The translations under genes were made by a program, and so were the position numbers. 64,000 nt of DNA from an uncultured bacterium (lineage in GTDB: Bacteria; Cyanobacteriota; Vampirovibrionia; Gastranaerophilales; Gastranaerophilaceae), in assembly GCA_950022495.1 (NCBI GenBank), contig CATLLJ010000004.1, positions 47,730 through 111,729 of the forward strand, read 5' to 3'. The notes below the pieces were generated by a model. The model was not told where the DNA came from. It saw only the letters and a program-made list of their open reading frames with translations, and did not search any database. This document shows, piece after piece, positions 4,183-64,000 of the stretch. Within the stretch, counting starts at the first letter, position 1, and each line of letters opens with the position of its first letter.

Positions 4183-5247
4183 ATGGCAAGAATAGCAATA
4201 GACGTAATGGGCGGAGACTACGCACCGAAGGCAATTATGGAAGGTGCTTTATGGGCTGCACAGGAATATGGTGTAGGCTTAGAGCTTGTTGGTCAACAGG
4301 ATGCAATTAACGCAGAGCTTGAACGTATAAGAAATGCGGGTTGTATCTATTCAGATTGTGGTACTAAAGGTCATAAAAGAAGAATTAGAATTGACGTCGA
4401 TAAAATAGATTATACAATTACTCATGCTTCAGAAGTTATTGGAATGGGTGAAGCTGTTGGTCAGTCAATTCGTAAGAAAAAAGATTCATCAATTGTTGCT
4501 TCAGTCAGAGCTGTTGCGGAAGGCAGATGCGAAGCTGTTGTTTCTGCCGGTTCAACAGGGGCTGCAATGGCAGCAAGTTTATTTGGATTAGGACGTATTC
4601 ATGGTGTGCAAAGACCTGCAATTGCGGTTACTTTGCCAACAATGAAAGATCCTGTTGTACTTATTGACGGCGGTGCAAATAGCGATTGTACTGCTGAAAT
4701 GCTTGCCCAATTTGCAGAAATGGGTGTTGCTTATGCTCAGCATGTTGTTGGAATTGAAAATCCTAAAGTGGGTATTTTGAGTATCGGAGAAGAAGAAGGC
4801 AAAGGCAATGCCCTTGTTAAAGAAACTTATCCGTTATTAAAAGATATGCACGAAAAGGGTTATATAGATTTTGTAGGAAATATTGAAGGAAAAGAACTTT
4901 TTATAAATAAATGCGATGTTGTTGTTTGCGACGGCTTTGCAGGAAATGTTGCCTTAAAAGTTACAGAAGGTACTGCTTCAATGCTTTTAAAAATGATATC
5001 AACCGAATTTAAATCTGATTTTATCGGATGTATTATCGGATTGTTAGCAAAACCTTTCTTGCGTCGTATTCTTAAACGTATCAATTGGGAAGTTTTTGGA
5101 GGCATGCTTTTGCTGGGTGTTAGAGGAATTTCTGTTATTGCACACGGCCGCAGTTCATCTTATGCTATGAAAAACGCTGTAAGAGCTGCAGTTAGAGTGT
5201 TGAATAAAGATATTAACTCCAGAATTGCAGAAAATATTAATAGATAG
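4183..5247 (+). CDS. plsX: Phosphate acyltransferase PlsX
   Basis: MARIAIDVMGGDYAPKAIMEGA...VSAGSTGAAMAAS...; rpmF-plsX-fabH synteny. Confidence 0.97.
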   Translation: MARIAIDVMGGDYAPKAIMEGALWAAQEYGVGLELVGQQDAINAELERIRNAGCIYSDCGTKGHKRRIRIDVDKIDYTITHASEVIGMGEAVGQSIRKKKDSSIVASVRAVAEGRCEAVVSAGSTGAAMAASLFGLGRIHGVQRPAIAVTLPTMKDPVVLIDGGANSDCTAEMLAQFAEMGVAYAQHVVGIENPKVGILSIGEEEGKGNALVKETYPLLKDMHEKGYIDFVGNIEGKELFINKCDVVVCDGFAGNVALKVTEGTASMLLKMISTEFKSDFIGCIIGLLAKPFLRRILKRINWEVFGGMLLLGVRGISVIAHGRSSSYAMKNAVRAAVRVLNKDINSRIAENINR

Positions 5248-60082: not shown

Positions 60083-60211
60083 ATGAAAAAGATTTTAATA
60101 ATTCTAGGTATACTAATTTTTATCAATCTGCTTATAATCACAGCAAGCAGAGTTATTGCTGCAGAATCAAATACAGCAATCCCAAATTCTATTACAGCAA
60201 ATCTTTTTTAG
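60083..60211 (+). CDS. Small exported peptide (42 aa)
   Basis: MKKILIILGILIFINLLIITASRVIAAESNTAIPNSITANLF*; RBS gtggag. Not in ORF track (below length cutoff). Confidence 0.55.
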   Translation: MKKILIILGILIFINLLIITASRVIAAESNTAIPNSITANLF

Positions 60212-60885
60212 TATTCCATTTTCCAGCCGGCATTCATAATTTCGGTTAAACAACCGGAAGCACGGGATGAAAATGTTCCTGAGTTGCCTGTACAAGTTGA
60301 AGCTGCGGCATAGACTTTCGGGTCTCTGGAATTTGAACCAAAGTCTGCAACTGTTCCATCAGATTTGATATCAACTGCAAATGTATCACGACCAATCATA
60401 TTTGGTTCAGCAGTACCGTTTACGTCAATAATAAGTGTAAGAAGGCTATTTTCATATTTACCGCAAATAGCTGCTCCATTTGTAGTCTGGATACAATAAT
60501 CTTTTTTATCCATAGCTCCTGCAGCACCTAATGCGATTGAAACATAACTATTTGAAATACATTGATTGTTTCCAGTACCGCAATTTCTTTTTACGGTTTT
60601 GAAATATGTATTTAAGAAATAACATGGTACATTACTGGATGCGGTACATTCATTGCCGGTAGTAGCAGTTTTTATAATAGCTTGAGTTTCATAAAAATTA
60701 TCAACGTGTTCGTCATTCATAATTGCCTGAGCTGCGTCAGAAATTTGTGAATAAGCTTTTTGAAGCTGGGCTGTATATAATCTATTCTTGTAGTTTTTCA
60801 TTACACCGGGAATTGTTAAAACAGCTACAACTCCGACAATACCAAGTGTAATTAAAACTTCTGATAGTGTAAAACCTTTTTTCAT
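60208..60885 (-). CDS. Type IV pilin-like/pseudopilin protein
   Basis: MKKGFTLSEVLITLGIVGVVAVLTIPGVMKNYKNRLYTAQLQKAYSQISDAAQAIMND. Confidence 0.9.
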   Translation of the reverse strand: MKKGFTLSEVLITLGIVGVVAVLTIPGVMKNYKNRLYTAQLQKAYSQISDAAQAIMNDEHVDNFYETQAIIKTATTGNECTASSNVPCYFLNTYFKTVKRNCGTGNNQCISNSYVSIALGAAGAMDKKDYCIQTTNGAAICGKYENSLLTLIIDVNGTAEPNMIGRDTFAVDIKSDGTVADFGSNSRDPKVYAAASTCTGNSGTFSSRASGCLTEIMNAGWKMEY

Positions 60886-60901
60886 ATATAATCCTTTCAA
60901 A

Positions 60902-61525
60902 TTAATATTTCATTACCCAGTTATCTTCAATAATTTTGTTCAAACAGCCATGACCGTATATATCTTTTGTGTTTGCATTATTACAGTTTGCCGGATTAAC
61001 ATGTGACATAACTTCTTTCTTAGCAGTATCTATTCTAAATCTGAACATATCACGTCCGCCGACATTTGGTCCATCTGTTGAGTTTACATCAACTGTAACA
61101 ACACATTCAGTTAATGTTTCACACATTAAATCAATAGCTTCTCCGCTTTTTAATCTAGCGTATGCTGATGCCGGTAATTGAAGTGCCTGTCCGGTATTTG
61201 AGCCCATTTTTCTATAAGTTGTTGCAAATGGTCTTGCCCCGTCAGTTATAGCTTCACCTGAAAGTTTAAAATATTTATTCAAAAATTCAGCTTGTTTATC
61301 AACTGCACCGACTTTTGCATAAGGAGTTTGGTTAAAATAAGAAACATTATTATCAATGCAAGCCTGTTCCATTGCACTTGAAAGAGCTTCATAAGTTTTC
61401 TTTAATCTTGTTGTGAACAATTTATTATGATAATCTTTCATAAAGCTCGGTAATGTTAGTGCCGCAATGACTCCAATTACAGTCATTGTAATTAATAATT
61501 CGCCAATAGTAAGGGCTTTTCTCAT
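60902..61525 (-). CDS. Type IV pilin-like/pseudopilin protein, variant cleavage motif
   Basis: MRKALTIGELLITMTVIGVIAALTLPSFMKDYHNKLFTTRLKKTYEALSSAMEQA. Confidence 0.85.
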   Translation of the reverse strand: MRKALTIGELLITMTVIGVIAALTLPSFMKDYHNKLFTTRLKKTYEALSSAMEQACIDNNVSYFNQTPYAKVGAVDKQAEFLNKYFKLSGEAITDGARPFATTYRKMGSNTGQALQLPASAYARLKSGEAIDLMCETLTECVVTVDVNSTDGPNVGGRDMFRFRIDTAKKEVMSHVNPANCNNANTKDIYGHGCLNKIIEDNWVMKY

Positions 61526-63218: not shown

Positions 63219-63620
63219 TTAAAAATTACAACCTAATGCAAGAGTTCTGCCGTTATTTTGTGCTTCATCAAGTGCTGCACTGTTAGATAACATTTCAATT
63301 GACTCGCCGTTTGAATCCATAATACCAAGAATTTGACAATTCATGTGGCTGTTACTGTTAGTATTGTTCATCAAATTATTAACTTTATTATTTAATTCTT
63401 CTATTTGGACAGTTAAATTATCAATTTCGCTATTATTGTTATTTTGTGCGTATTGGTTATTTTGAATTTGCTCTTTTGCACGGTCAAATTTTTGTTGATT
63501 ATTTTCTTTAATTTTTACTTCTGAAGCATCTTTAGTATTTGTGTAAATTGCTGCTATTACAAACACAAATAAACATAAAAATATAATTGTTAGCATTTTA
63601 AACTTGTTATAATTATCCAT
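63219..63620 (-). CDS. Single-TM coiled-coil hypothetical protein
   Basis: MDNYNKFKMLTIIFLCLFVFVIAAIYTNTKDA then Q/N-rich coiled coil IDNLTVQIEELNNKVNNLM; start 63620. Confidence 0.65.
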   Translation of the reverse strand: MDNYNKFKMLTIIFLCLFVFVIAAIYTNTKDASEVKIKENNQQKFDRAKEQIQNNQYAQNNNNSEIDNLTVQIEELNNKVNNLMNNTNSNSHMNCQILGIMDSNGESIEMLSNSAALDEAQNNGRTLALGCNF

Positions 63621-63687
63621 AGCCTCTCCCCTAGTTTTGGTGTAATAACATATTAGCATAAATGATTTTAATAGGGCTAATATATAA

Positions 63688-63723
63688 AAATAAGTTACAT
63701 GATATTATTCATGTAACTTATTT
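63688..63723. terminator. Perfect 15-bp-stem terminator 3' of the repeat precursor ORF
   Basis: AAATAAGTTACATGA-tattat-TCATGTAACTTATTT. Confidence 0.8.
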
Positions 63724-63741
63724 TATATATTTATTTTAATT

Positions 63742-64000
63742 TTAATATAATGTAGGTGTTGGGCTACCTCCATTGTCTCCGCCTTCTTCACCAAGTGCGT
63801 ACGTTGTCATCTTTTGATTAGTGTCGCTGCCGCCTTCTTCGCCAACGGCGTATGTTGTCATTTTTTGATCTTTAGGAGCCTGTTTAATACCTTCACCTCC
63901 ATTTTCTTCCGGAGAATAGGTAACTTTTAAAGCATCTTTTGGAATAGCCTGTTTAATACCTTCACCTCCATTTTCTTCCGGAGAATAGGTAACTTTTAAA
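63742..64000 (-). CDS. Candidate multi-core graspetide (omega-ester RiPP) precursor peptide, C-terminal part (runs off right edge)
   Basis: Minus-strand translation: ...LKVTYSPEENGGEGIKQAIPKDALKVTYSPEENGGEGIKQAPKDQKMTTYAVGEEGGSDTNQKMTTYALGEEGGDNGGSPTPTLY*. Two TTxxxxEE units plus a 69-nt tandem repeat. Not in ORF track (truncated). Confidence 0.75.
   Translation of the reverse strand, partial: LKVTYSPEENGGEGIKQAIPKDALKVTYSPEENGGEGIKQAPKDQKMTTYAVGEEGGSDTNQKMTTYALGEEGGDNGGSPTPTLY

Follow-up and report, generated by a model that had tools for sequence, protein, structure and literature searches.

The gene pair at the right edge of the window

The window, as the whole 64,000-nucleotide stretch analysed here is called (G000:C4:47730-111729), ends inside a gene. 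On its minus strand an open frame at 63742..64000 reads through the tandem repeats LKVTYSPEENGGEGIKQAIPKDALKVTYSPEENGGEGIKQAPKDQKMTTYAVGEEGGSDTNQKMTTYALGEEGGDNGGSPTPTLY to a stop codon and runs off the window edge; it is the 3' half of a putative graspetide precursor gene and encodes two repeat units of one type (class B), two of another (class A) and the C-terminal tail SPTPTLY. In reading order, the class B units VTYSPEENGG occupy 63964..63993 and 63895..63924 within a 69-bp repeat, and both align with units of the VTYALGENGD type in relatives. The class A units TTYAVGEEGG (63830..63858) and TTYALGEEGG (63779..63807) follow, found as pattern matches at G000:C4:111559-111587 and G000:C4:111508-111536. 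Beyond the stop, 63687..63724 on the same strand forms a terminator-like hairpin of 16 pairs with a U-rich tail (fold z-score -6.1), palindromic and usable from both sides.

Past the window edge the contig has the first base of a 100-N run at position 64001, midway through the precursor gene (L004:3731-3830). Scaffold joins are usually marked by runs of this length. Beyond the gap the precursor resumes with its repeat register unchanged (...TTMAVGEEGGEGHPPIKLPKDA / gap / LKVTYSPEENGGEG...), with flanks reading ...PKDA and LKVTYSPEE.... These flanks join in frame, because the identical junction, KDALKVTYSPEE, links two sequenced repeat copies. Since they meet in the same register, the gap length is nominal and may stand for an uncertain number of 69-bp units, possibly zero. 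The start codon is an ATG at L004:4156 with AAAGGAG upstream, and a leader of about 87 residues, including TFVNF at L004:3956-3970, precedes the first core, the class A unit TTMAVGEEGG (pattern match at G000:C4:111866-111894). A 29-base pattern for TT(x4)EEGG matches three times in the 1.93 Mb genome, always in this gene and on its strand, and its reversed control matches nowhere in the same 1.93 Mb. A PDB search returned no relative of the window precursor, and no scanned precursor, from the window or from relatives, scores above cut-off against Pfam or NCBIfam. Modelling a long precursor gave an uninformative structure (pLDDT 32) with no confident fold.

Outside the window and 128 bp from the precursor start lies a divergent open reading frame of 291 aa (L004:4285-5160, equal to G000:C4:112284-113159) that encodes a PsnB-like ligase. 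Pfam assigns it a RimK-type ATP-grasp domain above cut-off, and NCBIfam models for MvdD, MvdC and GRASP ribosomal peptide maturases match at 1e-29 to 1e-30, with scores (105.7 vs 475 and 105.2 vs 425 bits) far under the equivalog cut-offs for the microviridin synthetases MvdC/MvdD (TIGR04184, TIGR04185). Its best sequence relative in the PDB is PsnB, the plesiocin synthetase (7DRM-7DRP; E 6.5e-35, 124.5 bits), with CdnC and MdnB behind at 55.8 bits. The AlphaFold model (pLDDT 92) retrieves PsnB-precursor complexes first in Foldseek (TM 0.85/0.82, ~29% identity), followed by MdnC, AMdnB, CdnC and PruB and then by RimK (TM ~0.75). Across 17 relatives the D and R of a DFR stretch and an E..N pair near the C-terminus are invariant. 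Its placement in graspetide group 2 is tentative, PsnB being the best solved relative at ~29% identity.

Much of this had been anticipated. The original prediction read a truncated multi-core precursor on the minus strand of the last 259 nt, with terminal TTYAVGEE and TTYALGEE repeats and a strong terminator behind it, and proposed looking past the edge for a leader and an adjacent ATP-grasp ligase; each of these was found. Its attribution to a Melainabacteria-like genome agrees with the relatives, which belong to Candidatus Gastranaerophilales.

Leader motif and two classes of core unit

A motif of the [TSP]F[VI]x[FY] type, counted with a pattern widened to admit E and L at two positions, occurs in 17 of 22 precursor leaders, compared with a mean of 0.27 and a maximum of 3 in shuffles. 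Its forms include NTFVNFNDGA in the window precursor and PFIKF and PFVKF in relatives, and it resembles both the PFFARFL helix of microviridin leaders (PMC7823629) and the derived motif Phhx(1,2)h of graspetide leaders (PMC8939145). Judged by its sequence, the window precursor thus carries a conserved putative recognition motif ahead of its cores, as a graspetide precursor does.

The class A set (n=106) was collected with a regular expression that fixed Thr/Ser at positions 1 and 2 and Glu at 7 and 8, so that only the remaining positions are informative. Gly is found at position 9 in 106/106 units and at position 10 in 104/106 (98%), neither of which was used for selection; Ala occupies position 4 in 90/106 and Gly position 6 in 87/106. 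Position 3 is the most variable, at 2.65 bits, with M, K, Q, Y, I, L, E and others. Codons at the fixed residues vary widely, which indicates that conservation acts on the protein. In graspetides donors precede acidic acceptors (PMC7823629), and all 106 TTxxxxEE units place their hydroxyl donors ahead of their acidic acceptors at conserved spacing; three such units, the core form of group 2, are resolved in the window precursor.

Right-anchoring on Gly9 brings the class B units into the class A register: VTYSPEENGG in the window, and VTYALGENGD, VTLAGGESGD, GTYSLGETGD, ISYLSEEQGE and VTLAMLECGG. The original prediction had proposed TYSPEE as a second core with shorter spacing; it is a distinct unit type, but VTYSPEENGG keeps the Thr2-Glu7 spacing and instead lacks Thr1 and Glu8. 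The two missing residues tend to be present or absent together. Among unique units, Thr/Ser1 and an acidic residue at position 8 are both present in 45 and both absent in 17, with only position 8 kept in 13 and only position 1 in 4, two of these four being register artefacts. The p-value for this co-loss (3.6e-6) is nominal, as units share ancestry by duplication and the presence of Thr/Ser2 and acidic residue 7 was the selection condition. Nested Thr1-Glu8 and Thr2-Glu7 esters would lead to such a paired loss. Double esters are accordingly a good prediction for class A units, and for class B we lean, from sequence, towards one inner Thr2-Glu7 ester in place of two. The exact pairing of residues in plesiocin, as reported in its original paper, is the nested one proposed here for class A. 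Published accounts describe plesiocin as a hairpin built of nested rings, each repeat carrying two esters (PMC13097080, PMC12291112).

Distribution and limits of the cassette

The ligase is present in 18 of 289 genomes of the family, spread over eight genera. The core DNA motif TT(3)GEEGG occurs in 11 of the 289, in five genera, and all 11 are ligase-positive (Fisher p 1.3e-15, nominal in that genomes share ancestry); the reversed pattern has zero matches in any of the 289. Named ligase loci come mostly from Candidatus Gastranaerophilales of gut and other metagenomes, plus one Vampirovibrionales and one Moorena. The precursors vary greatly in length. The shortest, of ~60-72 residues with one core, sit beside the ligase in Lapin-004, G252 and G078; that of G043 has at least 127 residues and is a nearly pure TTMALGEEGGDSERTV tandem; and those of the window's genus and its nearest relatives (G251, E19_bin192, G140, G184, G046) reach 396-560 residues. 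The longest hold up to ~17 mixed units, in which cores alternate with spacers such as DDETKKKIQEIFDKYIKNAKL, called helix-like from a reading of the sequence and a weak model (pLDDT 32). The contigs of G043 and G093 also end within precursor repeats. Because these repeats interrupt assemblies, precursors of this kind may be undercounted by automated mining. Contigs that stop inside precursor repeats in two genomes besides that of the window are seen at L032/L105 and L033/L106; such genes tend to break assemblies.

The extent of the cassette can be read from G198, a genome of the same genus without the ligase, which has the membrane-anchored gene, phosphopentomutase and a PEPCK-like gene in the order of the window contig. 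Similarity between the two ends at L004 3419 and resumes at 5211, and ~1.8 kb with the precursor and ligase, present in the window species, is absent from G198. Since this empty site is clean, the cassette consists of just the precursor and the ligase; its exact ends and any direct repeats were not resolved by global alignment of the site. The 146-aa membrane-anchored gene at 63219-63659, considered as a cluster member, was rejected, as its homologue stands at the G198 empty site without the cassette. The pair lies beside threonine synthase in G046, G184 and G251 and elsewhere in G140, and most sampled members of the window's genus are without it; this is most simply explained if the pair was gained or lost repeatedly.

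A C39 peptidase or ABC transporter, which the original prediction also proposed to look for, does not belong to the cluster. Neither a peptidase nor a transporter is a recurrent neighbour of the pair at the examined sites, among them the cassette and flanks of the window locus, where an NHLM-type peptidase-transporter, a frequent but not obligatory companion of group 2, is also missing. The window genome's one C39-like match, on another contig (G000:C9), is an ABC protein resembling HlyB. It was rejected as the leader peptidase, being HlyB-like and with no Cys seen at the usual catalytic place; C39 is moreover absent from the ligase-positive G140 and G251, which have no match, and present in the ligase-negative G230. 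Separately, the window encodes at 60208-61525 two adjacent tandem prepilin-like proteins (GFTLSEVLITLGIVGVVAVLTIP start), probably pseudopilins.

Proposed product and competing readings

Taken together, the way the two genes are arranged, the family and predicted fold of the ligase, the leader motif, the joint occurrence of core and ligase and the extent of the cassette make it very probable that the window locus is a stand-alone, PsnB-like two-gene graspetide cassette of Gastranaerophilales. This reading is weakened by the ligase being ~29% identical to PsnB and scoring far under the MvdC/MvdD cut-offs, by the absence of a peptidase or exporter, an NHLM-type transporter being common in group 2 clusters, and by the gap, which may hide part of the precursor. 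From here on, the esters, their connectivity, the single ring of class B and an inhibitor role are what we infer. The ligase would bind the leader motif (N-TFVNF-NDGA), phosphorylate Glu side chains with ATP and close side-chain esters to the preceding Thr, proceeding from core unit to core unit. Each class A unit (TTxxxxEEGG) would carry a nested pair of esters like that of plesiocin, Thr1-Glu8 and Thr2-Glu7; each class B unit (VTYSPEENGG) would carry the inner Thr2-Glu7 ester alone. The product would be a string of small hairpin rings that differ in the residue exposed at position 3, most likely acting as a multi-headed serine-protease inhibitor.

Could the repeats be something other than cyclized cores? 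One alternative, that an enzyme like RimK tags the repeats by attaching glutamate or other residues to their EE motifs, would account for the Pfam match and for the shared superfamily and fold. Graspetide synthetases nevertheless score far better by sequence and by fold, and tagging would need neither a near-invariant Thr pair nor the linked loss of Thr1 and Glu8, all of which makes it very improbable. Similarly improbable is a structural, storage or surface protein with a ligase nearby by chance. The great length of some relatives (up to 560 aa), their repetition and helix-like spacers, the missing exporter and the lack of a confident fold would suit such a protein, but the core strictly co-occurs with the ligase among the 289 genomes, one-core relatives of 60-72 aa adjoin the same ligase, the leader motif is conserved and the empty site lacks both genes together. 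A long adhesin or structural repeat protein had been named beforehand as an outcome that would overturn the prediction; the gene is not adhesin-like and falls in no Pfam or NCBIfam family.

More serious are two readings that leave cyclization of class A in place. The half of the canonical residues that class B lacks could mean that these units are decayed and unmodified. Several lineages, however, retain them with Thr/Ser2, Glu7 and Gly9, as an exact tandem in the window and as VTYALGEN, GTYSLGET and ISYLSEEQ in relatives, so that decay, compatible as it is with the main reading of class A, is a real though lesser possibility. The product might also be cyclized without inhibiting proteases, the esters serving to stiffen a protein that works inside the cell, in a matrix or in signalling. 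The cassette without leader peptidase or exporter and the long, spacer-rich precursors favour this, as does the precedent of corallotide, a collagen-like graspetide (PMC13097080). The core unit and ligase are nonetheless of the plesiocin type, every graspetide characterized by 2022 inhibited proteases (PMC8939145), and variability at position 3 fits changing target specificity; we regard a non-inhibitor as plausible without favouring it. By analogy with plesiocin and microviridin, and given that variable position, the chance that the product is a protease inhibitor seems about even. A bolder version, which we offer tentatively, is that one ligase of gut Gastranaerophilales makes a very long product mixing double- and single-ring ester hairpins, distinct exposed residues and helical spacers, an expandable array of inhibitor heads against host or competitor proteases, whose production and release would involve no leader peptidase or exporter of its own. 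Around one ligase family the precursors range from a single core (60 residues) to ~17 mixed units (560 residues), so that one can test how one enzyme copes with differing ring topologies and how the number of cores evolves.

Relation to known graspetides

The chemistry class, the ligase type and the TTxxxxEE core are already known. Plesiocin (PsnA/PsnB, group 2) shares repeated TTxxxxEE cores, a single PsnB-like ATP-grasp ligase and a leader with several cores per chain. The present system differs in ligase sequence (~29% identity), its TFVNF leader motif with NDGA, mixed class A and B cores, up to ~17 units with helix-like spacers in relatives, its Gastranaerophilales host and the lack of a transporter, whereas group 2 clusters often carry one of NHLM type (PMC13097080). 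Microviridins (MdnA/B/C) share the ligase fold and the PFFARFL-type leader motif, met here as PFIKF and PFVKF, and the multi-core AMdnA (PMC5934393) shares several cores per precursor; unlike them, this system has a core other than TxKxPSD, one ligase that stays under the MvdC/MvdD cut-offs, and neither acetyltransferase nor transporter. Corallotide (group 15) also has an unusually large precursor with repeated cyclized motifs, its own features being KxxxD isopeptides, an oxygenase partner and confinement to Corallococcus. The 2026 RODEO survey lists 43 graspetide groups. Two of them, 34 and 35, are marked by long, repetitive precursors in which linkage-residue motifs recur, and 35 consists of synthetase and precursor only (PMC13097080). 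The present system may or may not belong to one of these two groups, and the survey may already count it, if without a description.

What looks new is the host lineage, the mixture of predicted double- and single-ring units on one chain, the range of lengths and the stand-alone two-gene form. Few natural products are known from the Gastranaerophilales and Melainabacteria, a lineage of uncultured bacteria of the gut, and our literature search found no paper linking graspetides or RiPPs to either.

Several neighbouring loci deserve mention. A Moorena sp. MAG, from a photosynthetic cyanobacterium, pairs the same ligase type with a 133-aa ORF containing TTFPIGEEGG and STLCLEEEGG (L068:4206-4607), and a two-core precursor at L036:10955-11698 has its cores flanking several GKKIQGTPGPGVHLDEGQ-like repeats. 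Precursor-like ORFs at L030:7619-8779 and L031:10300-11454 combine graspetide cores with Cys, KPSWGKPDCD repeats and His/Trp-rich HHHWGHHW, a composition that suggests metal binding. In genus g34, a paralogous ligase group adjoins precursors in which T(L/K/M)A(Y/F)PSDDAxG, a motif close to the microviridin core TxKxPSD, is present 3-4 times (L038:8297-8779, L039:7205-7729, L040:9318-9842, L041:10454-10978), and the L038 precursor has a sub-threshold NF033738 match (18.3 of 26 bits). Finally, ORFs of 91-96 aa with two DT(M/L)TxxxSD-type motifs lie directly upstream of a distant ATP-grasp ligase at L042:9795-10085 and L043:9144-9419, where a third conserved gene follows the ligase; these possibly represent a separate graspetide group.
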